In this document: positions 14,518 through 35,397 of the stretch, in pieces
Position numbering within the stretch: the stretch's first letter is position 1
Layout of the letters: every line of letters starts with the position of its first letter
Source: Candidatus Obscuribacterales bacterium
GTDB taxonomy: Bacteria; Cyanobacteriota; Vampirovibrionia; Obscuribacterales; Obscuribacteraceae
Direction of reading: 5' to 3'
Assembly: GCA_020050685.1 (NCBI GenBank)
Contig: JAGVKG010000029.1
Location: forward strand, 186,001-250,000
DNA length: 64,000 nt
Position numbers and translations under genes: made by a program
Notes under the pieces: model-generated
What the model saw: the letters and a program-made list of their open reading frames with translations, nothing else
The model's database searches: none
What the model was told of the DNA's origin: nothing

Positions 14518-17500
14518 ATGAAAAAAATAAAGTGCGGTTGGCAAAGACCTAGGCTTTTGAGCGTATTGGCGTCGCTTCTAGTTCTGCAGCTATGTCTGCC
14601 TAGTGCAAGCCTCGCTCAATTTAGAGAACGGCGCGACGCGGCGAGCGCTGCGGCGCAAGCAGCACAGGCGGCCGCTCAAGCGGCATCGGCCGGCAGCGTC
14701 TTGAATTTAGATCTCTCATCCACCGCTCGCAATATTTCTGCCAGTAATCTCAATCTCACCCAAGACCTGAACATTAACGTTGGTGGCATGCAACGCATGG
14801 TCACCGGAACCGATCTTTTGACAGCAGCTGAATTTGTGGCAGCACATCAAGTCCAATCTCTAGGCAACCAAACACTGCGCCTTGGTTCCGATGGCAATGC
14901 AGTCGGCGGTCGCTTCTCTCTCTCCTCATCTCTCACCTCTTCCATTTCCAACCTTGTCGTTCCCGAAAATGTAAAACTCCACCAAGACTTCGCTCAGCTG
15001 GCCAATCTCTCAATGACCGGTGACTTGATCAACTCCGGTAAGTTCGTAGCATTTTCTTCCAGCCCAATGGTAGACAATGCAGTAATCAATGCCAACAATA
15101 TCTATAACCAAGCAGGAGCAACTCTCACCACTTTGCTCCCTCAAGGCGGTTTACCAGCTGGCATGACTTCGGCCGTCTCTAACATGAATTTGACACTCAA
15201 CGCTCTCGGTGAGATTGTCAATCAAGGTACGATTTCCAGCGCCGGCAACCTCACCATGTCTGCAGGCGGAAATATTTCCAACACTACTCAAGCAGGTTCC
15301 GCCAGTCTTGCGACCATGCAAGCCTTGGGCAATGTCAATCTTGCCTCAGGCTCTGGCGTGATGACAAACTCCGGACTAATATCGTCCTTAGCCAACAACA
15401 TCAACGTCGCATCAGTCGGTGCGAACAACATATTGATCCACAACTATGGTGGCACATTGAGCGCGCTCACAGGCTCGATCAATGTAAGAGACAGTTCTTT
15501 CGATTTGAAAAAGAATATTTCCATACTTGGTGGTGATTTATTGTCACAACAAGTGAATGCCTATTCTGGCACCGGCATTACAAGAATGAATGTCAATTCT
15601 ATGACTGGTGCTGCCAATGTCTACGCCGGAGAAGCACATATCCTGACTGAGAATGGCGACTTGAATCTCGGCGTGATGGAACTGAGTGGTGACCCAACTT
15701 ATTTCTCGCATGGCAATATCACCATATCCAGTAACCTCAATACTGCCGGAGCAGACTTAGCCATTGTTGCCGGTGGCGACATCACGACCGGTGCACCTGG
15801 TGTCAGTATCACTACAGGCGGCGGGCAATTAAATATAATTGCCGGAGCAAATTTCACCTCAAGTGGTGCACCCGGCCCGATAGTGCCGCCAGGCGCTGGT
15901 GATACCACTTCCATTTTGACCATCGATATGGATAATCCAGGAGTGGGCAATATCGATTTAACCGGTGGCGGATCAAATGACATTTCTGCCTTAAGTTCAG
16001 CAGGCACCACCGGTGGTGCCATTAATCTTATTGCATTTGGTGGCACGATTACAGTGCCAACCGGTGTGACGATTACATCGTCCGGCACAACAGTCAAGAA
16101 TAGTTCAGGCGTGGGCGGCTCTGGCAATGTGACGATTATTGCCGGTGCGGCAACCGGTACAGCCAATGCAATTAGCATCGGTGACGTCGATGCCACCAAT
16201 TCAACCAATGGCTATGGCGGTCAGGTATATGTCGTGACCTCTAGCCCTCAAGTATTTTGCGTAGACTGCTTTGACAATCCTCAAAGCGAAATTAGAATTC
16301 AAAATGGCAAGATTCTCAATGATCTATCGTCCGGAAATTCAGCTTACTTCTATTACACAATGCCAACTTATGGATCGCCCGGCACTATCCAAAATGCCTC
16401 GATCTCAACTGGCAGTTTGTTGACCAACAATGCTTTCAACACAAGCCCATTTTTCCAGACACCATATTCTGTGGTGTTTGCCATTGCCGGAGCAAATCTG
16501 TTTGTTGATGGCGATGTTTCTGCCGTCGGCGTTGGTCAAGGCTATGCCGGCGACATACTGCTCGATAGCAATATCAAGCAAGATACTCAAGCAATGTTCA
16601 CGGTTGGCAGCACAGCTTTAGTGAACGGCTTGACAGGAAGCATTATCAATAACGGTGGATCTCCCGGAGCTCTATCATTCGGTTACATCAATGGCAATAT
16701 CTCAATACAGAACTACGGCACAGGTGGTATCACCGTATCCGATACCAGTTTGATCCAAATGGTGCCTGTTGACGGCAACGGACCTGGTCTGGATATTAAT
16801 GCCATGGCTGGTACGAACTTTGGTCTTTCAGCTGGTGGTCCTGTCTATATTGCCGGAGGAACATTGGATGCCAGTGGTGTCGGCTCAGGAGATCAACACT
16901 CAGGTGGTGCAATTGGTATCACCGGCACATCAGTAACTGTGACAGGAACTGGTCCGCTTAATTTACTGGTCAATAGCGCTGGCACCGGAACCGAAGGTGG
17001 TCCCGGAGGCAGTATCAGTATCGGCACCAACACCAATATCTCAATCGGCGGCGGCGATGGACAATTTACAATTACCGGGCACGGCGCTGCATATGGCAGC
17101 GGCGTTTTTACATTTAATGCCGGTGGCGATATCGACGTTGATCCCAATTATTTTGACGTAACACCTTCTTCGCCAAACGTTAACGGGTCATTTGCCTATG
17201 CCGGGCAAGTGCAATTTTATGCAGGTAATTTAGGAGTGGGCAATGTTCGCTTTTCCGATAGCTTCCAACTGGATGGCAACGGTGCCGGTCGAGGCGGTTA
17301 TATAATCATCCGTTATAATGACCCACTCAATCCTATGACAATAGGTGGTACTGGCCCTGGAAGTTATATCGATGGCGATCTGGTGTCACTCTCTCCCCTT
17401 GGCGGTACCGGTGGCGGTATCTCACTGGAGAACATGGGTGGCACGCTCAGTCTCAACCTCAGTTCATTGATATCTACAGGTGACGAAAGTGGTGCAACAG

Positions 17501-20500
17501 GATCAATTTGTTTCAACTGCGTCTCTTATCCCCGTCTGGCAAATGCAGTAGCGATTAGTGGCAGTGGAACTATTCTCGGCGCAATATCAGAAACATCCGC
17601 GACGTCATTCAGTCTAGATCTTGAACAAGTCGGCACACAGCTTTCCATAAGACCACAGTCCTTCAATGCCGGCATTGGTACCACTGCCGGTGATGTAAGC
17701 ATAACCACACGCGATAGCGGATCAAGCGTCTACATTGTTGCAGGCTCAGGAGCTGGCATTCAGGCAAATGGAAACCTGACCATAGTCACGCCACTGCTTA
17801 CATTCGGTGCATCAACTGGCATTGGTGTCAGTCCCAATTCTCGCGGCAACATTTCGATTACCGTTCCGACTGTAGCAATGACAGCCGGCTCGACTGCAAC
17901 AATATTTGGTGCCACTGGCGGCACAATCACAGTCGGTGCACGTACTGGAACACCATTCGTATTTGACAGAGTAGGCGGTGCCAGCCTAGCAGAACTTTAC
18001 TTAGATGGTGCACCATCATATATAAGCAGTGCGGCTGCCGACACAACCATCAACAGCAACGTCAAGATTTGCTCAAACGATAACACCGTCACCTTGACTG
18101 TCACCGCCGGACAATTTATCAATAACGGCACATTGTGTACGAATTGCATTTTAAACCTTAGAGGTAATTCGTCGGCATATTTCCAAAATGCAAACGGCAG
18201 CGTATCCTTGCCAGGATTAATCGATGCCGGGGGCGGTGCTGTAGCCGCGATTGCCGGTAGCGACATTTGGGGTACTGATACAATCATTCGCAATGCCAGC
18301 TCAACTTATCTTCTTGCCGGTGCTGCAATTTCAAACTTCACGGTCACTGGTTCCAGTGCATCGCCCGGCAACATTTCCGGCATCGCTTCGATTAGCACAA
18401 CCGGAGAAATAGTTGTCGCCTCATTTGGTGGTGGCACGATTGAAGTAGGCGATCTTACCAGCCAAGGCAACAACGTGCAGGTTTACTCACAAGGAAATAT
18501 ACATATTGGCAACATTCAAAATAATCAAGGCAGTGTAGATATTCAATCGGTAAACCCAGATGTAGGTGGTGGCATTACCTTCACTATGCTAGGAACTGTC
18601 TCCTCCGGTAGTGTTACAGCAGGAGCACCCGCCTTTACTGGTTCTGTGTATACCGGCAATATTGATGCATCCGCTGGTTCTGCGTTAGGAGAGATTGCTG
18701 GCGGATCAATTTATATTCAAGCCGGGCTCTTTATGCAAACAGGTTACTTGCGTACTTACGGTGCTGCAGGCAGTTTTGGTTACCAGCATCCGCCCAGCTG
18801 CTGTGTGACCGTGTCCAATGGAGGTTCCGGTGGATCGATAACCTTGTATGCGCCGAGTGGTGGCATCATTATCAATGGCGATGTTAATTCAGCTGGTGGC
18901 GGCGGTGGTGGCAATGACTCCGGTCCTGGCTACGATGGTGGCGCCGGCGGTAACATCAATATTGATGCCCACGGATTGATTGAGATAAATGGACCAGTGA
19001 TCGCTGCCGGAGGCGGTGGTGGCGGTGGCGGTGCCAATCTCACGGCTTGCTGTTCAACCGGCGGTGGCGGTGGCAGTTTAGGAGCTGGCGGCGGACCTAC
19101 AGGTGGTGGCATATTTGTTTCTTGGGACTTAGTCAAAAACCCACTTTTGAATGCTCAACCAGGAGAAGGTGGACTGAATAGCGGACTCTGTTGCGGCTCA
19201 GGTTCCGGCGGCGATGTCGGACAAAATGGACAAGCAGGAACCGATGCTGGAACGGCTGGTGGACTTGCGGGTCTTGGTGGTGCCATTACACTCAGCGGCC
19301 GCAATGTCGCTATTACGGAAACAATTGGCAGCTACTACGGTACAACCAGCCCTTATGACTCATATTCTTTGTTCAATTGGTCCAGTGCCGGCGGAGGCGA
19401 TCTTGACGTAACCATTACTAATTTTGGGCCGGTTGTCTCCAGTACAGAATTCAACGTCAATATGAATTTGTCATCTTCCAGTCAGATAATTCCAGTCACC
19501 TTGGTACTTCCGACATATTCAGTTGCCGGATTGGAAAACAGCAACTCATCATCAGTAATCAATAATTACAGTGGACCGAATGAAATCATCTTAAGCGGTG
19601 ATCGAACAATCACCAATGGTATCAACGTCACACCTGCAGAGTGGGTAGCTCTGGTCCAAGAGTCTTTAAATAGTCAGGCGGGCATTAATCTAAATGGCAG
19701 TGGAGTAGCAACAAGTGGATTTGTTTTCCTCAATGACCGGACCATGCCAGGCAGTAATTTCACTTCCTTCACCATACCGGCAACCGTGATTGCTAAAGTC
19801 GAAACATTGGCACCATTAGCAATTACCGGCAGTGCGACAATTAACGGCACACTTGATTTTTCCTTCCCCGGCACTTATAGCTCAAGCGGCACAACAACCG
19901 TTAGTTCCGGTGCAACTATGAACTTTACCAGCGAAGGTACAATTTCGGCACCAACCTTAACAGTGAACGGCTCATTGCTCTTCCGCAACATGGGAACAAT
20001 GAATCTCACCAATCTCAACATTACCGGTAACATTGTGGCTGGACAGTGCTGCCAACAAACGATCACTATTAATGCACTCGTCACTGGTATCTTTATCACA
20101 GGCGATGCTCCAGGGACCGCCACGATTACAGCACCTGGTGGAATTTTCATCAACATGACCGCCAATCATGTTTTGACATTCAGTAATAAGCTCAATTTCA
20201 GCGGACCAATGACCATTGACTCAGGCGGTGGACTGAGCGGAATCGACTTTGCTGCAAATGCAGTTTTGGCACCAGGATCTGATCCTAATTCATCACTGAC
20301 TGACTTAAATGCTATGTCTTGGAGCTTTGGCAGCAATGCAAGTGTTAGCGCTACATCCATTTCAGCTGCTGGAGCCATGTTTGGTCCTGGCAGTCTAACA
20401 ACCACTGTCGGAGACTTTACACTCAACAATCCAAGTTCCCTCAGCTGTGCCTGCATAAGCGTAGATTCAATCACATCAGCCGGCAATATTAATATCATTC

Positions 20501-23500
20501 GTCCCAATGTCGGAGGAGGGGCTGCCGGTCTACAAGCTGGTTCGATTACAACTGGTGGAGAAATTACGGCCGACGTAGCCGGACAATTTGACATTACTAA
20601 TACAAGCGGCAGTTATGAAACCCTCACATTAGGAAGCATGACCGTAGGTGGCGATCTGAATATAGCCAACTACAACGGTGCGGTACAGATCAATGATAAC
20701 AAGGTCATCCTTTCTCGCGGCAGTATAAATATTGGCACTGCCGAACTTTACAACGACGGTTATTTAAACTCCAATCCAGTGGGCACTACGGGTTCGATTT
20801 CGGTTTCAAATCCACTGGGCGATCTTTATATCGGAAATATCGGCTATGTCTCGGCCGCACAGGGCGGGCTGGGCAATCAAGGTTCGCTGTCCCTTAGTGC
20901 CGCGGGCAACTTGGACGCTGAATTTTTATATGTATATTTAGATGCACCAAGTGGAAATTACAAAGGTGGCGATGTCAATTTATATGCAGAGACGATGACG
21001 TTCTGGGAATCACAAATTAGTGTCAACGGTTCAGGAACTGGATCCGGCGGATCTATTAGTATCACTACCACAGGCAGTCAACCCGATTTCCCTGGCAATC
21101 CAACTTCTGACATTGTTATCGGTAATGGAAATGTCTTCGGTTCGTTTACGGATTTAGTATTATCTCTGTCGGCAATTGGAGGGACATTAGGTGGAAGCGC
21201 AGGGTCAGTTTTTCTTTCTTCCGGTACAAATCTAACAGTCGATCCAGCATTTCTCAGTCTTAGTCCTGGCGTCGGTGGCAGTGGTGGCACTATTTCACTC
21301 ACGGGTAATTCCACGGGTGATGGTGGCAATATTCAGGTAACGGGCGGATTGAATGTCAACGCAAGCGTAAGCGGCAATGGCCATGGCGGATCAATTTCGA
21401 TTATCTACAACGATAGTGCCAATGATTTTCTAATCGGCTCAAGTGGCGCCAACAGTTTCATCAACGGTAGCCTTAGCGCCAATGGCGCTGGTACTGGAAA
21501 TGGTGGCTCAATTACCATTCTCGGCCTGGCTGGTCCCATGTCCGTGATCAACTCCACTCAACTTTCCGCAACAGGAACCGATGGTTCCATTTTCTTCCAG
21601 TCCAATTCTAATAATCTTTCTCTCACAGGAAACGGCTTCCTGACTGCCGATGCTATTGGATTCAGAAGCACTGCCGATGTCACTGTTAACCAACTCGAGG
21701 TTAATGGCACAGTTACCGGTCAAGCAGCGGGATATTTCTCGATTACTACTCTGGCGTCTCTAACTTTAGGAAATATTTTGGCAGGCACTACTGGTTCCGG
21801 CTCGATCACAGCCACAATGAGTAACGGCAGTTTGAATGTCGCAGACTCAGCGCAACTATTTGCCCAAGATGGCATCACATTACAAAATCTCGATACGGTC
21901 AATGGCACGATTGCAATTGGACAAAACGCTTCGATTGGTGCTTCGCTCGGCGACGTATATATAGTTATCGGCTCTATCCCAGGAAGTCCGATAACTGGAA
22001 GTCCACCAGCGAACACCACAGTTATAGAATTGGCGGGCGGTCAAGCTTACTTTGGTACTAATGGTATAACAGATACTACCCCACAAAATACCGTGTTGGC
22101 TTATGCTGCCGATGTTGTATTCGATACTAATGGTTTGCCGGCAGCTAATATATCTCTTGGTGGTGGCACTTATATTAGCGCAAATAACACGTTTACTCCT
22201 ACGCTCACCCTCGACAGCCTCGATCTGACAGATCCAACGGTAACGGCCAATGTACTGACATTGCAAGGGCTGGGAGAGATTGGCGGCACACTCATCACAG
22301 ATGGTTTTGGCATTGCCACTGGTGGCAATTTGATTATTTCGCCATCCATCCTTAGCGGTACACTCTCCTCAGAAAATATTCCGCAGTTCGTCACCCTAAC
22401 AATGCTGGGATTCTCCACTGGTACAATCGACTATGACATCACAGCTTCGAGTACAACCAAACAAGTATTAATAGAAGGCACCCATGAATTTAAGGGTAGC
22501 GCCAACTACCAAGTCTCTTACATGACTATTACAACCGATCAGTCGTTCCCGGCACTGGAGGTAACCAGCACCGGTATACTATCCTATCAAGGAAACTATT
22601 TTGCTCTCACAACCAATGGTGATATCGCAGTCGATGGTGCACTATCGTTCAGCCCAGGTGCCAGAGTATTTATGGAAACGACCGGTGCCGGCAATATTAA
22701 TATTACGAGCACCTTAACGACTACTCCTTCAGCTCTCGTTAGCGATGGCGATCTTCACCTCACATCAGCCGGAACGCTTTCTGTCGCTGATATTATTGCC
22801 AACGGCAATTCAATCGGTCACGGTGGGGGAGCGGATATTATCCTCACGGCCGCTGGCGATATCAGCACAGGCAGTTTGCAATCGATGAGCGCCACCACTA
22901 ACGGCAGCGGTGGTGTTATTGATATTGAATCAACCGGCGGTTCCGTTACGCTAGGTGGATTCGTCGACGCAAGCTCAAGAGCGGTATCAGGAAATGGTGG
23001 CGGCGGTGACGTATCGATACAAGCTCTAGGTGACATATCGATTGTCTCAATCAATGCAATCGGCAATGACTATGGGACGGATACCTATGGTGGCTCTGTA
23101 TCCATTAATTCAACCTCAGGCTCCCTAATTGCCACAAGTCCAATTCAATCATTCATTGACGTTTCCACGGATAATGCTTCAGTCAATAATCCCAGCGCTA
23201 ACGGTAAAGGATACGGAGGCTCAGTTGATATAAGCGTTTTATCAATTCCAGCTGGTGTAAACAACAACTTGACTATCCGCGCCGAAGGTGGCCATGCCGG
23301 TGGCGATGGTGGTTTTGTCACCATCAATATGAGTGGCAATGCAGACCTTGGTTTTATTAGCACTTCTGCCGATCCATTAGGTGCGACCTCCGGAATCGGT
23401 AAGGGCGGAGATATTGATATCTTTACCAATGGCACAATTGCGGCCGAAAGTTTCCGGGCAACTGGTGGTATCACTTCCGGAAGTGGTGGCAACATATCAG

Positions 23501-26500
23501 TCACCTCCAATACCTCATCCTTGTCTGGCACATTTATCAATGCCGGTGCCACAAACGGATCGGGTGGGAACATTACATTATACGCAGATGGCAATTTGAC
23601 TTTCACCGGATACATTGCCTCAGCATCCATAGGCAGCTATGGTGATGGCGGCGCTGTATCATTCTATTCAGCTAATGGCTCGGCGCAAGCAACTTTCATC
23701 GACACTGCATCATTTACAGCAGGCACTGGCGGTTCAATAATTGTTAATGGCAAAACTGGGGTGACAATCAATTTCCTCACTTCCTATGGTGGCGTTTCAA
23801 CTGGCGATGGAGGCAATATAACTGTCACAAGCCAAGGCGACATTTCAGTTTTGCAATCAGGCTCAGCCGCACGCGCTCAAGCAGCCAACGCGGTCAACAA
23901 TGCTGGAAACATTTCAATAACCACCACCGGTGGATCGATAACCATGGATACCTCTGGGCTTGCTTTAGACGCCTCTGCAGATACCAATGGCAAAGGTGGC
24001 TCAATTAATATTTCTGCTTCAGTAGGCTTTACGGCTTCGGGCATTCGGTCTTCGGGTGGCTCAGAAAGCGGTAATTCAGGCTCCATTAATCTCACTGCAA
24101 TTGACATTCAGACTGGCGATATACAAAGCAATCCTGGATTGTCGGGAGATGGTGGCAACATAACCGTTACTGCTACGGGCAACTTCAGCTCTGGTCAAAT
24201 TTATGCAAGCGGCGGGGGGTATGGCAATGGTGGAGTGATTGACATAAATGCCACAGGCAACATCGACGCACAAAGCATATATTCAAATGGCGGGTCGTAT
24301 GAAGGGAATTCCTCATCAATTACATTGGTTGCCGGGGGATTTATTGATACTGGCGTTGTTAGTACCTATGGAAATAGCGGCAATAGTGCCGACGTAAGTA
24401 TGACCGCAGGCGGCACAATCAGTGCAAACGTCTTTGCTGATGCCGGGCCTTATGGTAGTTTTGGAGGAAACATTACACTAATTTCTACTGGAGCTGATAT
24501 AGCTGCCTCCAATATTGATTCGGATGGATACAATTACGGAACTGCTGGTGATATTGTTCTTCAAGCGGCAACAGGGATTTCAGTCACCCATATATGGTCC
24601 TATGGTGGCACAAACGCAGGTAATGCTGGAGATGTCTCACTTTCCACAACATCTGGTGCGATTGATTATACATTTATAGAAGCATCGGCATTCTCGACCG
24701 GAGGCACGGCAGGAAATGTCTCGCTTGCCGGTGACAGCGTCAGTGGTGGCTACATCACGACATTCGGAGCAACGGGAATTGGTAATGCCGGCAACATAAG
24801 CATAACTGCGACGGGGTACATTGACCTCAGCAACTATATTGACGCTTCAGCCCACGGAACAGGAAGCGGCGGTAATGTAACGCTCAGTTCATCGGCAGGA
24901 ACCGTATTAGTAAGTGGCGATATAAACACCTCAGGTCGGGGGTCTGGTTACGTAGCAGGTAATATTCAGATTACATACAATTCAGCGAATGCCTTTGTTG
25001 TTGATCCAATCCCAAGTAGTTTAAACGGTGTCATAGGTTCTATCTTTGCGCAAGGAACATCAGGAGCAAGCGGTGGCACAATTGCCATCGCAAATACCGG
25101 AGCCAACATGGTTCTGGACTTAAAAGGAACCATTTCAGTTACCTCTGATAGCGGTGCATCGGGAACAATAGCATTTTCTCAAACTGGGACTGTAACTATT
25201 TTAGGTGATGCAAATGGTGAATTGCTCGGACCAGTTTCAGCATCTGGCAGCGCGATTACTGTTGACATACAAAAAGCTGGTAGCACGCTTAATCTTGGAA
25301 GCATGGAAGCGACTGCTGGTTCAATCACAATCACTTTAGGTAGCAGTGCCAGCACGATTCGCGTACTTGGTGGTGCGGGACTTTCAGCAACAGAAGGAAA
25401 TATCATCCTTGAAAATGACAATGTGAGCAGCGGATCAATTATTCTCGAAGAGAACTCTCAACTCGGTGCAGTCAGCACAGGCTCGACAGTAGGAAAAGTG
25501 ATCATTGTTATGGGACCACCACCTGGCTCCCCACTCACCGGATCCACACCAGCCAATACGGTAGTTAACAGCACAAATGGTGGCGTGGCTTATTTCGGTA
25601 CCAATAGCATTTCCGATCAAGCGCCGACAAATACAATCACCGTCGATGGCGGCCACGTTATATTCAACACCGATACTGCGGCTTCATCTGCAATTCTCTT
25701 GGGTGGTAATGTTGCAATAAGTTCAACACAATCAGGCAGTGGCCCTGTGCTCATAGTGCTAGATAGCCTTGACTTAACTGATCCGGCGATCACCACCGCA
25801 ATTCAAACCAATATCACAAATGGTTTCATTTTAGGTTCTCTCACAGTCAATGGTGGTGGCGTTGCCACTGGTGGCACAATCACTCTTGATCCATCGGTTT
25901 TAGCACCAACCCTTACTGGTGAAAATATTCCAGCCAATGTCACTGTCGAATTGAAAGGATTCTTGTCTGGAAATCCGCTAGATATATCCGTTACGGCAAC
26001 AAGCTACACAAATCAGGTGATCATTTCCGGTACGCATGCCTTTATTGTTGATGCCAGTCCATCTGATGCATTTATCAACGTTACTTCCGATCAGACAAGT
26101 CCATATATCGTCATTGCCAGTGGTGGCATTCTTTCATCAGATGCGGCGCTAACAGTTACCGCCAATGGCAGCATGTCGCTTGGTGGCAACGTAACGGCAG
26201 GGACAACACTTTCAATGTCGACAACGGCAAACAACGGCAACATTGCCATTGCCAGCACGCTCACCGGCACCACATCGGTAAGTTTGTCTGCTCACGGCAC
26301 AGGTTCAATTACACAAACTTCTGGTAGCATTTCCACAACTGGTACTTTGTCTCTCACAACAGCAGGTGGAAATATCGGCAGCCCAACACAGAATATTGTC
26401 ACCAATGCACCAACAATTACAGCAAGCACCGGCGGTGGTGCCAATGCCAGCAGCGTCTATATAAATAGTACAGCCGGTAGTGGCGTGACTTTCTCAGGCA

Positions 26501-29500
26501 CTAATCAAGCCGGCACATCGGGAACATTCTTTGTTAATGCCAGCAACAACATCGTCACCGGCAGCTCATCCACAATTTCTGCCGCCACCGTCATTCTCAA
26601 TTCTGTCTCTGGCAGCATCGGCACCAGCACTACTTCGCGATTGGAAATTGCCGGCAGCTCAACCACGAATCTAACAGCTTCCGCTCCTAATGGTGCCATC
26701 TACATCGACAGCGCGGCACCAATTGCCCTGCAAGGAAACTTAGTTGGCTCAACCATGTATGCCAATGCCACTCAAGGTAATTTTGATCTCACCTCTGCCG
26801 GACAAATCACTTCATCGTTCAGCGTTGGCACCAACTCGGCTGCCATTAGTACGATAGGAAGCGCACAAGAAGGATTAGCTTATAACCCCAGCGGTACCAG
26901 AGCCTATCTATCACACACAAACGGTCTCATTGACGTAATTGACACATCGACCAATGTTATTTTGACCACCATTACATCCGTCGGAACAGTCCTCGTAGGT
27001 ATAACAGTAAATCCTGCTGGCACTCTTGCATACGTGGCTGATTATGGCTCTGCCTCCGTAAAGATAATTGACCTATCAAACAATACCGTTAGTGGGTCAA
27101 TTACAGTGGGTACTCAACCAATTGGTATTGCATTCAATCCTACAGGAACTGTTGCTTATGTCACAAATTTTGGTAGCAACTCAGTATCTGTTATCAATAC
27201 AAGCACTAACCTAGTCACGGCGACAATTACCGTTGGTGCTACCCCGGCGACGCCAGGCATGAATTCTAGCGGTTCTACCTTATATGTACCGAATTATGGA
27301 ACTAATACAGTCTCTGTAATAGACACTGCCACCAATACTGTTTCAACCACTATCACTGTCGGCAACAATCCGTCGATTGTTAGAGTCAGCCCTAATGGTC
27401 AATTAGCTTATGTGACGAACAGAGGTGGCGATTCCATCTCGATAATTTCAACTGCCACCAATACAGTGTCCACAACCATTATCGGTGTCATGGGACCGCT
27501 CGGTGTTGCATTTAATCCTTCCGGTACGATGGCATACATCACCAATAATCTTGCTCCTGGCTACGTGTCAGCCGTAGATACAACAACAAATACAGTTGTC
27601 TCCACAATGCCAACCACAATTCAACACCCATGGCCTGTAGATGTTAACCCATCCGGTGCTCAAGCATATGTGGGAATTGACCACACAAATCAACAAGTAA
27701 ATGTAATCAACATTCCGATTCCAACCATTCAGTCTACATCCGGAGCAGTCACCTTATCGACCTCTGCAGGCGCGATTGGCAGTGCAACAACACCTGTGTC
27801 CACAAAAGCTGCAACGCTCACTATCAATTCAGCAAGTGATGCGTATGTCAGCAATGTTGGTTCTACAACCTTGGCTGCAACCGGAAGCGTACATAATTCT
27901 GCAGTTGGTACTTTCCAGGTTGCTACAACTCCAGATCTAACAACCGGCAGCGGACGAATCACCGTCAACGATACTGTCACCGTATCTGGTGGCACCATAA
28001 ATCTTCAATCAAGCGAAGGTCAATGGGGCAGCGTCAATCAGGGTGGAATTGTTCAACAACCGGGTGCCTCTCTGACGGCAAGTACAGTCAATCTAAATGA
28101 CGCACTATTTACCAACGCTGCCGGTGTCGGGGCATATGTTGGTGCCGGTACTGGTAGCGGAACAATTGGTACATCAGGACAGAATATCCTCACAACAGCT
28201 TCCACTTTGACTGCACGAACCCAAAGCGATGTATATGTTACCAATCTGGGAGCCGTTGGTCTTGGCACATCGTTTGCTGGATTCTCATCGAGCTTCAACC
28301 TGACTACAACTCCGGATGGTAGCGGAAATGGTGGCATTCAAATTAATTCCGCAGCAACTGTATCGGGAAGGACAATCTTACTCACGTCATCATCCAGCGG
28401 CACAGGCTCAGGCTCGATTACACAACAGGATGCTTTGACGACAGCAACAATACGTACACAGACAGGACAGTCTGCAACATCCGTGTTTACTGCTACAGGC
28501 ACAGGTAGTGGAGCGGATAATATATCGCTCGGCATTCGAAACAACAATGTATTCAGCGGCATATTTGTAAGAGCAAATGCAGCCGGGTCAGTCACTCTGC
28601 AATCAATAGGAGATGTAGGAGTAGCAACCGGGGCATCGTCAGCCGGAACTACGTACGCTTTGACAACAACACCGGATAGCGGCGGGCATGGTGCAATTCG
28701 AATTGTCTCCGGTGGAACTATAACAGCGCCAACCGTCAACTTAACGTCATCTTCAACCGGAGGCGGCATTGGCTGGATTGGTCAGGACGATGCGATCACT
28801 ACTGTCACTATAAATGCGGCAACACTAAATGTTAGTGCTCCCGGCACAGGTAACGGTACTTTCGTCTTTACAGGTAATCCGATACAACTGGGTACAACAA
28901 ATGGTACTTCGCCATTGACATTGAATGCCAATTCAACTTCATTTGTAAATATCAGAAATGTCGGCTCAGTTAACTTATCTGGTGCCTCCACAGCAGGTAC
29001 AGGTCAAGCATTTACGCTAAATTCCGTAGCCGATTCCGGTGGTAATGCAACAATCAACTTTAATAACTCTTCGAGCATAACGGCTAACACTGGCGGCTCA
29101 GTAACCCTTGATGCTAAGGCAATCACGACCGGAACCAGCACCACTATTACGGCTGTCGCAGGCAATATCAATTTAACCGCAAGCACTGGTTCGATAGCAG
29201 TTGGTACAGTGGCCAGCAGCTCTGTTGCCACTGGTTCTTCCGGAGACATAAACATAACAGCACTGAATGGCAATATATCAGCCACGGTTATTCGTGCAAA
29301 TGGAGTTACATCTGGTACGGGTGGCGACATTACCATCGAAGCAGGAGGAAGTATAACAACCTCAGGAAATATTGAGACTCGAGGCAAGGGCACATTTGCT
29401 AGCGGAATACTGTCCGTAACAGCCGGCACCAACATTAATCTCGGTGCGAACAACTTACTTGCTCTTTGCGACAGCTGCACACAGCCAAGCATGACTGTAA

Positions 29501-32500
29501 CTGCTGGCGGATCCATTACTGCCAAGAATATTGACAATATAGTTCAAGGAGGAAATGGAAACGGGGGCGATTTGACGGTCATAGCCGGTGGTGACATTAC
29601 GACACCGAACGGTGGGATTTATACTTGGGTTGCCGGCCCTAGCGGCAATGGTGGCAATTTAACTGTAACTTCTGGCGGCAATATAACTGCCGATTGGTAC
29701 ATCACATCAAATGGTGGCAATAGTAGTGGTGATGCCGGCGACATGAACGTTAGTGCAGCTGGCAATATCTATGCCCGGCTGGGAATCATCTCCTGGGGAA
29801 ATGGTGGCAGTAACGGCGGCGACATGACCTTAGTAGCAGGTGGCAGTATCACCACAGATAGCACAACAGCCAACCGAGGCATTGACACTTCATCGTATGG
29901 CACAGGCGGTACTGGCAATGCTGGCACTATGAGCCTGCAAGCTGGAACAAATATCACCGCAAATTACATTGCCTCGGCTTCAACTGGCACTCTCGGCAAT
30001 GGTGCGCAGATGACCCTTGTCTCAACCAATGGCAACATAACTTCCGTTGGAGCGATTTACTCATCTTCTGCCAGTGGCAATGGTGGTGACATGGTTCTTA
30101 GAGCACCAAATGGCACAATTGCTGCACAAAATAATGCTTGCTGCTTTGGTGACAACGATCCTTTGTATCCAATTTCTGCCTCAGGTGCTGGTACTGGTGA
30201 TGCCGGCAATATTACACTTCAATATTCATCTGGCAGCGCCTTCATCGTTGATGGTACAAACCATACTCTCACTAATGGCGCTGGTGGTGGCATTTCCGCA
30301 GCAGCCGCAGGATCAGGAAATGGTGGCATTATTACTCTGGTTAATAGCGGCGGTGATGTTAACGTAACATTGAATGACGCAGTAACTGCTCAGTCCACAT
30401 CCGGCACAAATGGCTCGGTAAACTTCAATTATCTGCAATCAGGAATTGGCAGCCCACCGGCAGTAAACCCGGCAAGCAACGTCAATGTGACAGGAAATAG
30501 CTCCGGTCAATTGGGTGGAGTCGTATTTGCATCGGGCGTAACGATAGATATTGATTTGCCGAATGCCCCGATTATTCTTGGAAATTTGACTGCCACTAAC
30601 GGCTCAGCCTCTGTAGTCGTAAATGGAGACATTGTTGTCGTACCTGGAAGCACGCTTAGCGTGACTGAAGGCGACTTACTTTTACAAGATCTAAATACTG
30701 TAGATGGCGCAATTACCATTGGCGAAGGAAGCACGCTTTCGGCTACAACTACCGGATCAACTTTCGGCAATGTCTACCTCGTCATCGGTACGATACCAGT
30801 ATCTCCTGTATATGGCTGGGCACCAGCGTATACATTTGCTAATCAACTTAATGGTGGCAAAATTTATTTTGGCGCCAATGGTATCGGCGATGCGCCTACA
30901 CAAAATACTGTCACCGCTGATGGTGGCAATGTGATATTCAACACAGCTTCGCTTGCCAGTTCCGCGATTACATTAGACGGCGATGTGACAATCAATGCCA
31001 CCGCCGCACCACATGGATCGACAGGACCGCTTGGAAGCCTTGACCTTACAGATCCTTCAATTACTTCGCAAATTCTTGCCCTAATTGCCGGCACCACAAT
31101 AACCGGCACACTTGATGTCGACGAATTCGGTGTAGCAACCGGTGGCAATATTACAATTGCTCCTTCAGTCTTGGCTAACACCCTGGTCGGTTACAACATT
31201 CCAGAAAACGTTACCGTGAACTTTCAAGGATTCACCTCCGACAATCAAATCACGATTAACTTAACTGGTGCCAGCTACACGACACAAGCCGTTCTTTCCG
31301 GCACTCAGCAATTCTCTGGTGGCGGCGTCGGTCTGGTTGTGATCAATTCCAACCAAGCTGGTCCGGTATTGCAAATCAACGACACTGGCAGCGTCTCTGG
31401 TGATGGTGGTGTTAGTATCGCAGTTGGCGGCAATGTAGTTGCCAACGGAATTGTTTCATCGACTGACAATTTAACAGTTCGTACAGTTGCCGGAAATGGT
31501 GGTATCGCGGTTGGTGCCAACATAGCTGGTACGGATTTGACAATTCTCACCACACAAGGCAGCGGCTCCATATCAAGAACCTCCACGACCACAACAACTG
31601 GTGTCGTATCCGGTACCACAGTCAGTCTCAATGCTGAGACTGGTTCGATCGGCACAGGCGCTTCGAACATTCAAACTGCTACTTCGACATTGACGGCTAA
31701 TACTCTTACCGGCAGTGCCTTCATCACAAACACCGGCGCCTTGAACTTAGCAACCTCATCTGTAGGCAGTACACTGCAAGTGCTGAACAACAATGCAATT
31801 ACCACAACCGGTGCAGTAAATGCAGGCATCGTCAAGCTGACAACAACTGCCAACAACGGCAGCATTACTGTAGACTCGAATGTCACCGGTGCCACCTCAA
31901 CCAATTTAACAACTCAAGGCACTGGCATCGTGACAATCAACTCCACAAGAACAGTGGCAACAACATTAGGAAATGTCAACGTCATTGCCTACGGTGTTGA
32001 TATTCAAGGCGCAATTAATTCCGGAACACGTTCAACACAATTGCGTCCAAACTCAAATGAAAATATCACTATCGCCAATACCGGTGCCTCGGCTGATCCA
32101 TTTGAAGTAAGCGCAACTGAACTCTCGCGCATCACCGCAGGTACCTTATTAATCGGCGACTTTGGTAAGAACGCTCCAATCACCTTGGCCGGCAACATGA
32201 ATGTCTCTGGCTCTGGTGCAGGCGCCTACAGCCTTGTATTCGTTAGTGGTGGCACTTACACACCAAATGCAGGAACTACGATTAACCTCGGCACGAGCAG
32301 ATCGTTATCAGTCTCAACGCAAGGCGCAGTCAGCACAGGTGCAGTAACTGGCGGCACATTCATCAGCTTCAGTTCCGCTCAAGCTATGACCGTCAACGAT
32401 GACATAACAGTCGGCACAAACGGCACCATTATTGTCCGCGGCACTTCTATTAACATCACCGGCACGCTAAACGCACCAACCGGTGAAATTCAATTGGCAC

Positions 32501-35397
32501 CATATGGAACACGTTCGATTGCTCTTGGTGGCACTGGTGGTAATGCACAATTTGAAGTTACCAATGCGTTCCTATCAAACATTTCTGCCAACTCCCTCGT
32601 ACTTGGCGATGCCATGGTTCCGGGTGGAATTACAGTTATCGCCGGCACGAATCTTTCCGCCACCAATGTCTCGCAATACAATTTGCAAAACGGCGGTAAC
32701 ATCACAAATGCAGGCACACTGACCATGGGTCTAAAATCAATGCTCATGCATGCTCAGGGCTCTGTCACCTCGGGAACTATTAATGGTGGCACGTTCGTAT
32801 CGCTTCAAGCTCAAACTAATTTGGATGTTAACGGCGCTATCACAATGTCAGGCGGATCGTTCTCTATGCAGGCTGCATCAGTTAACCTCACAGGCAGCAT
32901 AAATGTCGGACAAGGCATTGTCTACTTCGTTCCATCTTCCGATGTGGCAATCTCAGTCGGAGGCGCAAGCGGCAGTGCACCATTTGCTATAACTGATTCC
33001 ATGTTAGCCAGCGTCACAGCGACGGCAGTTGCCATTGGCAATCTGAATGTTAGCGGTGGACTGACAGTTGAAGCGGATCTCAATCCATCATCTTCCTACA
33101 ATCTCTACCTACTTAATGCTGGACCAATTTCAACAGCAGGACAGACCATCACAGTTGGCTCACGCACACTTGGCATACAATCCGGCTCAACGGTAACCAC
33201 AGGTGCAATTTCCGCAAGTGGCGGTCAAGTCACAGTCCTCGCTGGCGGCACGCTTACAGTTGATGGCGCAATCACCAACTCAGGCGCCGGCACTGTCACC
33301 CTTGCAACAACCGCCGGTAGCAACGGCGACGTTGTCCTCAATGCATCCGTATCCGGCGGCAATATTGCCACACTTTCAGCCAGTGGTTCAGGCGATATCA
33401 GTCAAACAGCCGGTACATTATCTGCTACCAGCGTCGTACTTTCAAGTGGCACAGGAAACATAGGCACGTCTTCTGCTCCGCTCGACGTAGTCGCTTCTAA
33501 TCTACGTGCAAATACTGCCGGTTCAGGTACAGTCTTTGCCGAGGTTACAGCTTCGTCCCTCACGCTTGGCTCATCATCTGCTGGTACTGACTTAAGCGTC
33601 ACAGCCAGCGGCAACCTTACCGTCGGTAGTATCGCCACCCTCAACGGTGACATTACCTTGGTAGCAAATGGTGCGCTCCTTGTTCAACCAGGCAAAATAA
33701 TATTTGCCAATGAAGGCAATCTCGTTCTGCAGAATACAAATACCGCAAGCGGCACAATTGTAATTGGACTGAATAGCGAATTGGAAGCATATACCGACAG
33801 CAATCCAAACAAAGGCAATGTAACAATCTTCATCGGTACAGTTGCCCCAACCCCAACCAACACAACAGCACCGGCAAACGTTGATGTAAATGCAGTTGGT
33901 GCGGGTCAAGCATACTTTGGAGCTAACAGCATCCTTGCTCTCAAGCCAGGTTCCGAAGATAACGTGATCAATGCCATCGATAGAGATGTTGTATTCGACA
34001 CAGGCTCACGTCCAGCCTCCGCTATTACCTTGGAAGGTAATAACGTGATCACTGCTGACCCACCAGTACGACCAATCGTCAGCATACAGCCGTCGGATTC
34101 AGGACCAGACTCTCTTAACATGACCAATGGTGTGAATCTGAATCCAACATCCGGTGGCACAGATTCTGGCTCAACAGGCTCGGGATCAACGGGTTCAGGA
34201 GCAACTGGTTCTGGTTCGACTGGCTCCGGTTCAACTGGCTCTGGATCGACAGGTTCCGGATCGACAGGTTCCGGATCGACAGGTTCCGGATCGACTGGTT
34301 CTGGATCGACAGGCTCGGGTTCGACTGGTTCTGGTTCAACCGGTTCCGGATCGACTGGCTCTGGTTCAACAGGCTCGGGTTCGACTGACTCTGGATCGAC
34401 TGACTCCGGATCAACTGGTTCTGGATCGACTGGTTCCGGATCGACTGGTTCCGGATCGACAGATTCCGGATCGACTGGCTCTGGTACCACCACGACTACA
34501 ACGGGTGGACGCAACGGAAGGAATGGTGGCACGACCACAACTACGACAACAACTGCAGGTGGCCGTAGTGGCAGAAATAGTGGCGGTACAACAACCGGTA
34601 CTACTGGCGGCACAACAACAACATCCGGTGGTCGCAGCGGAAGAAATAGTGGCACGACTACAACCACAGATTCCACCACCACAACCACATCTGGCGGCCG
34701 TAGCGGACGCACGAGCAGCACCACTACAACAAGTGGTTCATCTGATTCCTCATCCACGACTACAACTGGAAGAAAAGCTAGAACAAATGTTCCGGTTGCC
34801 TTTACACCAGTGACCACCACGCCTGGCATCTTCATGATTAGCGTTGGCACAGCTCTAGTTGAATACAGCCCAGCTGCTCAACTCAGTGCCAAAGAAATCG
34901 GTGTAGTATCACTCGATAGCGGTGAAGCAATGATTATCGCCTCAGATGACACCGTGATCAATACCGGCGGACATCAAATTACCGTTGCTGGTGGAACCAT
35001 CGCTCACATCTCCCAAGAAGATGGAGTGACCAAGGTTCGCAACCTTTATGAACAAACACCCGGCAGCAAAGGCGTACGCGCACTTGTTGATGGACAATTA
35101 GTTGCCACCTCAGCCGGTACCGAAATAATTGCTAGCTTCGATGCCAATGCACTCAATGAATCGGTCAAGAAAGATGCCATAGGCCGCCGTCAAATGCAAT
35201 CGTTTGATGTTGGTGGCGCCAAAGTCGCAACTTGCGAAATATCGCTTGTGTCACTCGTTCCTAACTCGGATTTGTTGCCACTGGTCATGCACAGCAAACA
35301 AAAGAATGATCGTGCAATCGCTGAGAAACTGATCAAGATGGCTGCCTGCCTCTCAACAGCAACCTCTAGTCACGGTCCTTACAAGAGCGGCGAATAG
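14518..35397 (+). CDS. Giant secreted modular protein, 6959 residues (paralogue 1)
   Basis: A signal peptide (about 1-33) is followed by an Ala/Gln-rich stretch (37-60) and an N-terminal module (62-160) with 'LTAAEFVAAHQ...GNAVGGRF...LVVPENV'. This module recurs at about 1690-1780 as 'VTPAEWVALVQ'. Most of the protein is Gly/Ser/Thr/Asn-rich short beta-strand repeats ('GGNITI', 'SGDVSI'), as in beta-helix adhesins. A Gly-rich tract lies at 1415-1598. A VIG/YFG/DLTDP module occurs at about 2452-2708, 3618-3885, 5375-5641 and, truncated, 6392-6525. A seven-bladed YVTN-type beta-propeller occupies 4109-4402. Then come 21 copies of a [G/D]SGST pentapeptide (6549-6653), a Thr-rich tract with four GGRxGR blocks, and a FecR-like domain (about 6765-6880). 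Cysteines occur nearly only as close pairs. A surface or matrix role is inferred; no TpsB partner or anchor is visible. Confidence 0.85.
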   Translation: MKKIKCGWQRPRLLSVLASLLVLQLCLPSASLAQFRERRDAASAAAQAAQAAAQAASAGSVLNLDLSSTARNISASNLNLTQDLNINVGGMQRMVTGTDLLTAAEFVAAHQVQSLGNQTLRLGSDGNAVGGRFSLSSSLTSSISNLVVPENVKLHQDFAQLANLSMTGDLINSGKFVAFSSSPMVDNAVINANNIYNQAGATLTTLLPQGGLPAGMTSAVSNMNLTLNALGEIVNQGTISSAGNLTMSAGGNISNTTQAGSASLATMQALGNVNLASGSGVMTNSGLISSLANNINVASVGANNILIHNYGGTLSALTGSINVRDSSFDLKKNISILGGDLLSQQVNAYSGTGITRMNVNSMTGAANVYAGEAHILTENGDLNLGVMELSGDPTYFSHGNITISSNLNTAGADLAIVAGGDITTGAPGVSITTGGGQLNIIAGANFTSSGAPGPIVPPGAGDTTSILTIDMDNPGVGNIDLTGGGSNDISALSSAGTTGGAINLIAFGGTITVPTGVTITSSGTTVKNSSGVGGSGNVTIIAGAATGTANAISIGDVDATNSTNGYGGQVYVVTSSPQVFCVDCFDNPQSEIRIQNGKILNDLSSGNSAYFYYTMPTYGSPGTIQNASISTGSLLTNNAFNTSPFFQTPYSVVFAIAGANLFVDGDVSAVGVGQGYAGDILLDSNIKQDTQAMFTVGSTALVNGLTGSIINNGGSPGALSFGYINGNISIQNYGTGGITVSDTSLIQMVPVDGNGPGLDINAMAGTNFGLSAGGPVYIAGGTLDASGVGSGDQHSGGAIGITGTSVTVTGTGPLNLLVNSAGTGTEGGPGGSISIGTNTNISIGGGDGQFTITGHGAAYGSGVFTFNAGGDIDVDPNYFDVTPSSPNVNGSFAYAGQVQFYAGNLGVGNVRFSDSFQLDGNGAGRGGYIIIRYNDPLNPMTIGGTGPGSYIDGDLVSLSPLGGTGGGISLENMGGTLSLNLSSLISTGDESGATGSICFNCVSYPRLANAVAISGSGTILGAISETSATSFSLDLEQVGTQLSIRPQSFNAGIGTTAGDVSITTRDSGSSVYIVAGSGAGIQANGNLTIVTPLLTFGASTGIGVSPNSRGNISITVPTVAMTAGSTATIFGATGGTITVGARTGTPFVFDRVGGASLAELYLDGAPSYISSAAADTTINSNVKICSNDNTVTLTVTAGQFINNGTLCTNCILNLRGNSSAYFQNANGSVSLPGLIDAGGGAVAAIAGSDIWGTDTIIRNASSTYLLAGAAISNFTVTGSSASPGNISGIASISTTGEIVVASFGGGTIEVGDLTSQGNNVQVYSQGNIHIGNIQNNQGSVDIQSVNPDVGGGITFTMLGTVSSGSVTAGAPAFTGSVYTGNIDASAGSALGEIAGGSIYIQAGLFMQTGYLRTYGAAGSFGYQHPPSCCVTVSNGGSGGSITLYAPSGGIIINGDVNSAGGGGGGNDSGPGYDGGAGGNINIDAHGLIEINGPVIAAGGGGGGGGANLTACCSTGGGGGSLGAGGGPTGGGIFVSWDLVKNPLLNAQPGEGGLNSGLCCGSGSGGDVGQNGQAGTDAGTAGGLAGLGGAITLSGRNVAITETIGSYYGTTSPYDSYSLFNWSSAGGGDLDVTITNFGPVVSSTEFNVNMNLSSSSQIIPVTLVLPTYSVAGLENSNSSSVINNYSGPNEIILSGDRTITNGINVTPAEWVALVQESLNSQAGINLNGSGVATSGFVFLNDRTMPGSNFTSFTIPATVIAKVETLAPLAITGSATINGTLDFSFPGTYSSSGTTTVSSGATMNFTSEGTISAPTLTVNGSLLFRNMGTMNLTNLNITGNIVAGQCCQQTITINALVTGIFITGDAPGTATITAPGGIFINMTANHVLTFSNKLNFSGPMTIDSGGGLSGIDFAANAVLAPGSDPNSSLTDLNAMSWSFGSNASVSATSISAAGAMFGPGSLTTTVGDFTLNNPSSLSCACISVDSITSAGNINIIRPNVGGGAAGLQAGSITTGGEITADVAGQFDITNTSGSYETLTLGSMTVGGDLNIANYNGAVQINDNKVILSRGSINIGTAELYNDGYLNSNPVGTTGSISVSNPLGDLYIGNIGYVSAAQGGLGNQGSLSLSAAGNLDAEFLYVYLDAPSGNYKGGDVNLYAETMTFWESQISVNGSGTGSGGSISITTTGSQPDFPGNPTSDIVIGNGNVFGSFTDLVLSLSAIGGTLGGSAGSVFLSSGTNLTVDPAFLSLSPGVGGSGGTISLTGNSTGDGGNIQVTGGLNVNASVSGNGHGGSISIIYNDSANDFLIGSSGANSFINGSLSANGAGTGNGGSITILGLAGPMSVINSTQLSATGTDGSIFFQSNSNNLSLTGNGFLTADAIGFRSTADVTVNQLEVNGTVTGQAAGYFSITTLASLTLGNILAGTTGSGSITATMSNGSLNVADSAQLFAQDGITLQNLDTVNGTIAIGQNASIGASLGDVYIVIGSIPGSPITGSPPANTTVIELAGGQAYFGTNGITDTTPQNTVLAYAADVVFDTNGLPAANISLGGGTYISANNTFTPTLTLDSLDLTDPTVTANVLTLQGLGEIGGTLITDGFGIATGGNLIISPSILSGTLSSENIPQFVTLTMLGFSTGTIDYDITASSTTKQVLIEGTHEFKGSANYQVSYMTITTDQSFPALEVTSTGILSYQGNYFALTTNGDIAVDGALSFSPGARVFMETTGAGNINITSTLTTTPSALVSDGDLHLTSAGTLSVADIIANGNSIGHGGGADIILTAAGDISTGSLQSMSATTNGSGGVIDIESTGGSVTLGGFVDASSRAVSGNGGGGDVSIQALGDISIVSINAIGNDYGTDTYGGSVSINSTSGSLIATSPIQSFIDVSTDNASVNNPSANGKGYGGSVDISVLSIPAGVNNNLTIRAEGGHAGGDGGFVTINMSGNADLGFISTSADPLGATSGIGKGGDIDIFTNGTIAAESFRATGGITSGSGGNISVTSNTSSLSGTFINAGATNGSGGNITLYADGNLTFTGYIASASIGSYGDGGAVSFYSANGSAQATFIDTASFTAGTGGSIIVNGKTGVTINFLTSYGGVSTGDGGNITVTSQGDISVLQSGSAARAQAANAVNNAGNISITTTGGSITMDTSGLALDASADTNGKGGSINISASVGFTASGIRSSGGSESGNSGSINLTAIDIQTGDIQSNPGLSGDGGNITVTATGNFSSGQIYASGGGYGNGGVIDINATGNIDAQSIYSNGGSYEGNSSSITLVAGGFIDTGVVSTYGNSGNSADVSMTAGGTISANVFADAGPYGSFGGNITLISTGADIAASNIDSDGYNYGTAGDIVLQAATGISVTHIWSYGGTNAGNAGDVSLSTTSGAIDYTFIEASAFSTGGTAGNVSLAGDSVSGGYITTFGATGIGNAGNISITATGYIDLSNYIDASAHGTGSGGNVTLSSSAGTVLVSGDINTSGRGSGYVAGNIQITYNSANAFVVDPIPSSLNGVIGSIFAQGTSGASGGTIAIANTGANMVLDLKGTISVTSDSGASGTIAFSQTGTVTILGDANGELLGPVSASGSAITVDIQKAGSTLNLGSMEATAGSITITLGSSASTIRVLGGAGLSATEGNIILENDNVSSGSIILEENSQLGAVSTGSTVGKVIIVMGPPPGSPLTGSTPANTVVNSTNGGVAYFGTNSISDQAPTNTITVDGGHVIFNTDTAASSAILLGGNVAISSTQSGSGPVLIVLDSLDLTDPAITTAIQTNITNGFILGSLTVNGGGVATGGTITLDPSVLAPTLTGENIPANVTVELKGFLSGNPLDISVTATSYTNQVIISGTHAFIVDASPSDAFINVTSDQTSPYIVIASGGILSSDAALTVTANGSMSLGGNVTAGTTLSMSTTANNGNIAIASTLTGTTSVSLSAHGTGSITQTSGSISTTGTLSLTTAGGNIGSPTQNIVTNAPTITASTGGGANASSVYINSTAGSGVTFSGTNQAGTSGTFFVNASNNIVTGSSSTISAATVILNSVSGSIGTSTTSRLEIAGSSTTNLTASAPNGAIYIDSAAPIALQGNLVGSTMYANATQGNFDLTSAGQITSSFSVGTNSAAISTIGSAQEGLAYNPSGTRAYLSHTNGLIDVIDTSTNVILTTITSVGTVLVGITVNPAGTLAYVADYGSASVKIIDLSNNTVSGSITVGTQPIGIAFNPTGTVAYVTNFGSNSVSVINTSTNLVTATITVGATPATPGMNSSGSTLYVPNYGTNTVSVIDTATNTVSTTITVGNNPSIVRVSPNGQLAYVTNRGGDSISIISTATNTVSTTIIGVMGPLGVAFNPSGTMAYITNNLAPGYVSAVDTTTNTVVSTMPTTIQHPWPVDVNPSGAQAYVGIDHTNQQVNVINIPIPTIQSTSGAVTLSTSAGAIGSATTPVSTKAATLTINSASDAYVSNVGSTTLAATGSVHNSAVGTFQVATTPDLTTGSGRITVNDTVTVSGGTINLQSSEGQWGSVNQGGIVQQPGASLTASTVNLNDALFTNAAGVGAYVGAGTGSGTIGTSGQNILTTASTLTARTQSDVYVTNLGAVGLGTSFAGFSSSFNLTTTPDGSGNGGIQINSAATVSGRTILLTSSSSGTGSGSITQQDALTTATIRTQTGQSATSVFTATGTGSGADNISLGIRNNNVFSGIFVRANAAGSVTLQSIGDVGVATGASSAGTTYALTTTPDSGGHGAIRIVSGGTITAPTVNLTSSSTGGGIGWIGQDDAITTVTINAATLNVSAPGTGNGTFVFTGNPIQLGTTNGTSPLTLNANSTSFVNIRNVGSVNLSGASTAGTGQAFTLNSVADSGGNATINFNNSSSITANTGGSVTLDAKAITTGTSTTITAVAGNINLTASTGSIAVGTVASSSVATGSSGDINITALNGNISATVIRANGVTSGTGGDITIEAGGSITTSGNIETRGKGTFASGILSVTAGTNINLGANNLLALCDSCTQPSMTVTAGGSITAKNIDNIVQGGNGNGGDLTVIAGGDITTPNGGIYTWVAGPSGNGGNLTVTSGGNITADWYITSNGGNSSGDAGDMNVSAAGNIYARLGIISWGNGGSNGGDMTLVAGGSITTDSTTANRGIDTSSYGTGGTGNAGTMSLQAGTNITANYIASASTGTLGNGAQMTLVSTNGNITSVGAIYSSSASGNGGDMVLRAPNGTIAAQNNACCFGDNDPLYPISASGAGTGDAGNITLQYSSGSAFIVDGTNHTLTNGAGGGISAAAAGSGNGGIITLVNSGGDVNVTLNDAVTAQSTSGTNGSVNFNYLQSGIGSPPAVNPASNVNVTGNSSGQLGGVVFASGVTIDIDLPNAPIILGNLTATNGSASVVVNGDIVVVPGSTLSVTEGDLLLQDLNTVDGAITIGEGSTLSATTTGSTFGNVYLVIGTIPVSPVYGWAPAYTFANQLNGGKIYFGANGIGDAPTQNTVTADGGNVIFNTASLASSAITLDGDVTINATAAPHGSTGPLGSLDLTDPSITSQILALIAGTTITGTLDVDEFGVATGGNITIAPSVLANTLVGYNIPENVTVNFQGFTSDNQITINLTGASYTTQAVLSGTQQFSGGGVGLVVINSNQAGPVLQINDTGSVSGDGGVSIAVGGNVVANGIVSSTDNLTVRTVAGNGGIAVGANIAGTDLTILTTQGSGSISRTSTTTTTGVVSGTTVSLNAETGSIGTGASNIQTATSTLTANTLTGSAFITNTGALNLATSSVGSTLQVLNNNAITTTGAVNAGIVKLTTTANNGSITVDSNVTGATSTNLTTQGTGIVTINSTRTVATTLGNVNVIAYGVDIQGAINSGTRSTQLRPNSNENITIANTGASADPFEVSATELSRITAGTLLIGDFGKNAPITLAGNMNVSGSGAGAYSLVFVSGGTYTPNAGTTINLGTSRSLSVSTQGAVSTGAVTGGTFISFSSAQAMTVNDDITVGTNGTIIVRGTSINITGTLNAPTGEIQLAPYGTRSIALGGTGGNAQFEVTNAFLSNISANSLVLGDAMVPGGITVIAGTNLSATNVSQYNLQNGGNITNAGTLTMGLKSMLMHAQGSVTSGTINGGTFVSLQAQTNLDVNGAITMSGGSFSMQAASVNLTGSINVGQGIVYFVPSSDVAISVGGASGSAPFAITDSMLASVTATAVAIGNLNVSGGLTVEADLNPSSSYNLYLLNAGPISTAGQTITVGSRTLGIQSGSTVTTGAISASGGQVTVLAGGTLTVDGAITNSGAGTVTLATTAGSNGDVVLNASVSGGNIATLSASGSGDISQTAGTLSATSVVLSSGTGNIGTSSAPLDVVASNLRANTAGSGTVFAEVTASSLTLGSSSAGTDLSVTASGNLTVGSIATLNGDITLVANGALLVQPGKIIFANEGNLVLQNTNTASGTIVIGLNSELEAYTDSNPNKGNVTIFIGTVAPTPTNTTAPANVDVNAVGAGQAYFGANSILALKPGSEDNVINAIDRDVVFDTGSRPASAITLEGNNVITADPPVRPIVSIQPSDSGPDSLNMTNGVNLNPTSGGTDSGSTGSGSTGSGATGSGSTGSGSTGSGSTGSGSTGSGSTGSGSTGSGSTGSGSTGSGSTGSGSTGSGSTGSGSTDSGSTDSGSTGSGSTGSGSTGSGSTDSGSTGSGTTTTTTGGRNGRNGGTTTTTTTTAGGRSGRNSGGTTTGTTGGTTTTSGGRSGRNSGTTTTTDSTTTTTSGGRSGRTSSTTTTSGSSDSSSTTTTGRKARTNVPVAFTPVTTTPGIFMISVGTALVEYSPAAQLSAKEIGVVSLDSGEAMIIASDDTVINTGGHQITVAGGTIAHISQEDGVTKVRNLYEQTPGSKGVRALVDGQLVATSAGTEIIASFDANALNESVKKDAIGRRQMQSFDVGGAKVATCEISLVSLVPNSDLLPLVMHSKQKNDRAIAEKLIKMAACLSTATSSHGPYKSGE
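34162..34476 (+). repeat. 15-base tandem repeat, 21 copies
   Basis: Twenty-one in-frame units of 15 bases encode the pentapeptide [G/D]-S-G-[S/A]-T within the giant protein. Unit sequences are close variants of GGTTCTGGATCGACT, differing mostly at third positions. The length is exactly 315 bases. Such arrays expand and contract by slippage or recombination without frameshift, so the stalk length may vary between strains. The strands also give long open antisense frames (Pro/Glu/Val repeats), which are artefacts of the array. Confidence 0.95.

Follow-up and report, generated by a model that had tools for sequence, protein, structure and literature searches.

As the title of Jing et al. (2002) shows, surface proteins combining a beta-propeller with a beta-helix have been in print since 2002. 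The archaeal surface-layer protein of that study, PDB 1l0q, shares its YVTN repeat and its fold with the domain described here. Proteins of this type carry a YVTN propeller together with PKD, whereas the ORF studied here gave no PKD match (8 pieces, E 0.001), and its propeller lies in the middle of a 6,959-aa bacterial protein whose family appears to be order-restricted and has an N-terminal domain of its own. Likeness was also seen to the filamentous-haemagglutinin-like exoproteins of two-partner secretion, which are giant as well, with a signal-peptide-like start and G/S/T/N-rich repeats. Three of ten N-terminal domains of the present giant family gave sub-threshold matches to Fil_haemagg, and TIGR01731 behaved likewise (3 of 10). 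However, no family scored above its cut-off and no POTRA_2 partner was found here; a search for literature pairing the YVTN beta-propeller with filamentous hemagglutinin found none. According to the accessible text of PMC6143338, BtuG is also a surface-exposed seven-bladed propeller, but it is a stand-alone lipoprotein of Bacteroidetes. Giant1-5 of Apilactobacillus kunkeei are giant extracellular paralogues which make up 6% of the genome and exchange domain sequences; they belong to an unrelated lineage with unrelated domains, and the accessible text on them does not mention a propeller. The YVTN-type propeller fold itself is ordinary. Less usual are the mid-chain site in so long a protein, the hints that the domain has moved from one paralogue to another, and the presence of three copies in a relative. 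The host family is little known, and no description of giant proteins of this lineage was found in the titles and abstract starts of open-licence papers.

Propeller repeats and predicted fold

The window, that is, the whole stretch of 64,000 nucleotides analyzed from a Candidatus Obscuribacterales genome, had been described in a sequence-only reading as carrying a complete YVTN propeller at 26842-27723. We found that these positions correspond, as claimed, to residues 4109-4402 of the ORF at 14518-35397, and that the seven units are present. Their spacing was 42, 42, 42, 42, 42 and 44 residues, and residues 4107-4402 matched TIGR02276 with 143.7 bits (cut-off 27.85, E 1.1e-42). Averaged over seven consecutive 42-mers, identity peaked at the propeller (0.264), compared with a maximum of 0.178 elsewhere in the protein, and shuffling the propeller segment 2,000 times never gave more than 0.134. 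The blades were uneven: blades 2-5 were 38-52% alike, while blades 1, 6 and 7 reached 17-31% against any other. The best solved relative by sequence was 1l0q (phmmer E 1.5e-55). Lactonase family PF10282 also matched (37.1 bits, cut-off 21.7), its best stretch covering 141 residues only.

Structure prediction from the single sequence gave a pLDDT of 44.6 and was discarded. With a 40-row alignment, which included 39 relatives from 73 contig-search loci (the other 34 were left out here and in the tree because of poor coverage, internal stop codons, unusual length or lower rank), AlphaFold2 predicted a closed seven-bladed ring with pLDDT 91.0 and pTM 0.90, and 255 of 318 residues scored 90 or more. 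The 27 strands listed in the model are arranged as in a seven-bladed ring that the first strand closes, with a lone strand at residues 4107-4111, six four-strand blades and three strands ending at 4398; in blade 4 the first strand was broken up. Three structures matched the whole ring and are ties: the seven-bladed design 7big (Z 40.5, rmsd 1.4, 282 aligned over model residues 11-306), 5yzv (Z 40.3, rmsd 1.6, 284 aligned) and 1l0q (Z 39.7, rmsd 5.1, 279 aligned; Foldseek E 8.8e-27). Velcro closure, in which the first strand completes the last blade, is usual in propellers. The strand order and the full-ring matches suggest that the lone first strand serves as the fourth strand of blade 7 in the model; because it would close this blade, the two chain ends should be adjacent. 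Features are listed in Table 1.

Table 1. Window coordinates of the host ORF, the propeller and its blades, and the neighboring regions.
Feature	Position	Strand	Basis or remark
Host ORF, giant repetitive protein	14518..35397	+	6,959 aa; N-terminus signal-peptide-like by eye
N-terminal domain (residues 1-425), defining the apparently order-restricted giant family	14518..15792	+	39 own-genome matches
Seven-bladed YVTN beta-propeller (model strands span residues 4107-4398)	26836..27711	+	Repeats, family matches, model
First strand (residues 4107-4111), predicted to complete blade 7	26836..26850	+	AF2 strand list; pairing from strand order
Blade 1	26860..26985	+	
Blade 2	26986..27111	+	
Blade 3	27112..27237	+	
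Blade 4	27238..27363	+	
Blade 5	27364..27489	+	
Blade 6	27490..27621	+	44-residue step to blade 7
Blade 7	27622..27711	+	Three in-chain strands; fourth would be the first strand of the domain
Right flank (residues 4403-4560)	27724..28197	+	Common to C49 paralogue; E 3.5e-20, E 1.5e-19
C-terminal domain (residues 6681-6959)	34558..35394	+	Common to some family members; no Pfam match

The giant family and its probable export

The 425-residue N-terminal domain of the host ORF had 39 matches in its own 4.2-Mb genome and no Pfam or NCBIfam family above cut-off. Three members of the giant family lie within the window, at 14518-35397 (plus strand), 41227-46752 (minus) and 52106-60139 (minus). A single-sequence query detected the domain in 35 of the 50 family genomes; within the order, a ten-row profile detected it in 40 of 53 genomes. 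Across the phylum, it was found in one of 292 sampled genomes, which was the own genome. It was found in none of the 42 other genomes with related propellers, a set without a positive control that took 42 of the 73 related-propeller loci. By these searches, the giant family is restricted to the order. The 28 family ORFs fetched from the own genome total 125,269 residues from stop to stop, or 8.9% of the genome, a share that is approximate because several ORFs run off contig ends; the longest family frame has 14,495 codons. In a relative (G010:C6), a 3,162-aa frame is built from numerous regular repeats, each roughly 98 residues long and carrying the GxIG anchor also seen in the right flank of the propeller, and these repeats offer a clean template for rod modelling.

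A hydrophobic, signal-like stretch, as judged by eye, is present at the start of the 6,959-aa protein, which is probably exported by the Sec route; the giant-family proteins in general are probably secreted. Lysine (0.7%) and arginine (1.2%) are very low in this protein. Ahead of the C-terminal domain, about 105 residues (window 34159-34485) form near-perfect STGSG repeats, and T-rich stretches containing GGRxGRN motifs come next. A likeness of the C-terminal domain to FecR was considered and found no support in Pfam.

Known partners of large exported proteins were also searched. POTRA_2, which marks the TpsB partner, had no match in the own genome, while 5 of 14 controls were positive. The TPS domain PF05860 had no match in pieces of the host ORF and none in the own genome, a result to be read with the controls, of which 0 of 14 were positive either. 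Omp85 (BamA) had no match in the own assembly, compared with 42 of 50 family genomes; either an assembly gap or a real loss is possible, and a gap could also account for the missing POTRA_2. A monoderm organism, first considered from the missing Omp85, was dropped as an idea given the 42 positive genomes. In 40 of these 42 the match was single, mostly in frames of 650-750 aa, a pattern that looks like BamA. Since Omp85 is mostly single and BamA-like, a two-partner system with a separate partner for each giant protein is unlikely.

Distribution, flanks and origin of the propeller

In the own genome, only 3 of the 28 fetched family ORFs carry a propeller: the window ORF, C49 (1,691 aa) and C53 (1,808 aa). 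The domain is therefore not part of every homologous repeat. A stand-alone YVTN protein of 515 aa is encoded on own-genome contig C54. The propeller search matched 46 of the 50 family genomes, mostly with stand-alone proteins of about 500 aa, and diverged propellers may have been missed because this listing stops at E 0.001. Both the N-terminal domain and a propeller were present in 13 ORFs from 8 of the 50 genomes, with 15 embedded propellers in total; G002:C135 and G027:C359, which had no N-terminal match, were excluded from this count and from the tree. Nine of the 15 start between frame residues 568 and 794, and the window propeller starts deepest (residue 4107). Eight loci of relatives (L086, L087, L088, L089, L091, L093, L094 and L095) have a special blade 7, GNFxGxVGNNxxAYxxNxxxNxVSVxRxP, which is found in most embedded propellers of relatives and is absent from the window propeller and C49. 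At one of these loci (L086, G018:C86, 7180-11880, minus strand), a single ORF contains three YVTN propellers at intervals of about 2 kb. The second and third are nearly alike, probably through duplication of a propeller-plus-spacer block. Chitinophagaceae loci L100, L101, L103 and L104 have related propellers within frames of 1,322-1,692 aa.

Both flanks had been read as returning at once to beta-helix-like repeats. On the right side, recognizable GxIG-type units do resume about 20 residues past the last strand. The beta-helix assignment itself fared less well: the flanks had no Pfam, NCBIfam or PDB family match and their residue alternation was weak. Composition and this weak periodicity suggest that the flanks may be rod-like. 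The best non-self match of the right flank was the C49 protein directly after its own propeller, with 42% identity over 150 aa. Outside the own genome, the right flank matched generic units only, the best being G045:C157 (E 9.1e-12), whose fetched part has one GxIG unit. When the two flanks were joined, the score beat that of most random joins (52 of 1,500 were as good), in a test that is weak; flank scores alone (30.9 and 16.2) nearly added up to the joined score of 45.5.

Most other embedded propellers were preceded by a similar coil. A profile of the left flanks of these propellers scored the left flank of the window propeller no better than random places in the host protein (3,406 of 6,052 control positions did as well), and the corresponding right-flank profile scored its right flank better than most places: 431 of 6,041 positions were as good, or 597 of 6,041 when C49 was removed from training. 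No clear orthologue of the host ORF and no empty-site orthologue were seen among the genomes searched, in which the genus was represented by the own genome only. The earlier description of the propeller as spliced in agrees with its left edge; it does not extend to the right edge, where the flank is common to the propeller-bearing C49 paralogue. Because C49 shares the right flank and not the left, the propeller seems to have been transferred together with its right flank as a single block and not as a clean insertion.

The phylogeny of 65 propellers, including those of 39 of the 73 contig-search loci and 11 of many stand-alone family proteins, placed the window propeller as sister to that of C49 (99/95). 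Fourteen of the 15 embedded propellers fell with three outside rows in one group (97/79), the fifteenth, G002:C94, was placed elsewhere, and the stand-alone family proteins formed a clade of their own (100/100). The wider shape of this tree is unsure because four embedded rows are on very long branches. The 515-aa stand-alone protein, considered as a donor, is unlikely since it falls in the other clade (100/100). The window and C49 propellers were 46% identical; with over half of the residues different, either the transfer happened long ago or these domains change quickly. A foreign origin by composition was rejected as well: the propeller has a GC content of 0.444 compared with 0.488 for the ORF, but its codon usage does not differ from that of the host gene (a score as low or lower in 96 of 137 windows), which fits a move within the family. 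Judged from these sequence comparisons, the propeller was most likely shared via recombination with the sister gene, and the transfer may have run from a C49-like gene to the window ORF.

Possible roles of the propeller

We favor, with a probability of about 0.6, the reading that the complete YVTN propeller is a side module on an exported rod, most likely acquired by recombination within the family and presenting a ligand-binding disc. A propeller-plus-right-flank block from a C49-like gene would have been placed in a new left-hand context. Because the ends of a velcro-closed ring adjoin, a repetitive rod can accommodate such a propeller in one of its turns, and the rod would enter and leave the closed ring at one point. 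The disc would then be held at a set height along the rod for a protein, glycan or small ligand, and binding by this laterally placed disc would be its most likely function. The domain had been proposed as the ligand-binding head of the filament. This position is not borne out, as the propeller is located at 59% of the chain length (residue 4107 of 6959); since about 2,560 residues follow it, it would be a side appendage and not a tip if the rest is a rod.

The main rival to a binding disc is that the propeller acts structurally, as a spacer or a lattice contact, without a specific ligand, as in S-layer proteins; we consider this possible, though on the unlikely side, and a spacer would leave the same traces. 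Among solved structures, the closest is the YVTN domain of an archaeal surface-layer protein (1l0q), in agreement with this role, and 25 of the 28 fetched own-genome family ORFs are without a propeller, so a specific ligand is not needed by all of them. On the other hand, presence in some members only, and as a single copy in the window ORF, suits a lattice element poorly; the three propellers in one ORF of a relative fit a lattice or a non-lattice view alike. It is very doubtful that the propeller is a functionless passenger moved by recombination of repetitive genes. Dozens of copies of repetitive paralogous genes favor chance exchange, and blades 1, 6 and 7 have diverged, but the reading frame is unbroken, and all seven blades and their closure are retained in the model at high confidence. 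In addition, the common left-hand context of most other embedded propellers in relatives suggests that the arrangement is old and kept. Least likely of the readings weighed is a high-affinity catcher of a cofactor or metabolite, such as BtuG, which takes up vitamin B12 in Bacteroides. Its authors overlaid this surface-exposed seven-bladed propeller on 1l0q (accessible text of PMC6143338), yet the BtuG structure 3dsm was not among the 32 sequence matches at E 0.001, and no transport gene was recognized in the neighboring ORFs (10 proteins, two of them pieces of the host ORF).

A broader and rather doubtful idea is that the giant surface proteins of this order have a recurrent coil "socket" into which velcro-closed propellers are plugged; by spreading to further sites and paralogues, these would give each cell a variable set of binding discs, placed at various heights along very long rods. 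Apart from this idea, the locus offers a clean test case of how enormous bacterial surface proteins gain domains. A domain with adjacent ends would here have been set into a repetitive chain without breaking the chain, and the likely relative of its source can be named, namely a paralogue in the same genome (C49).
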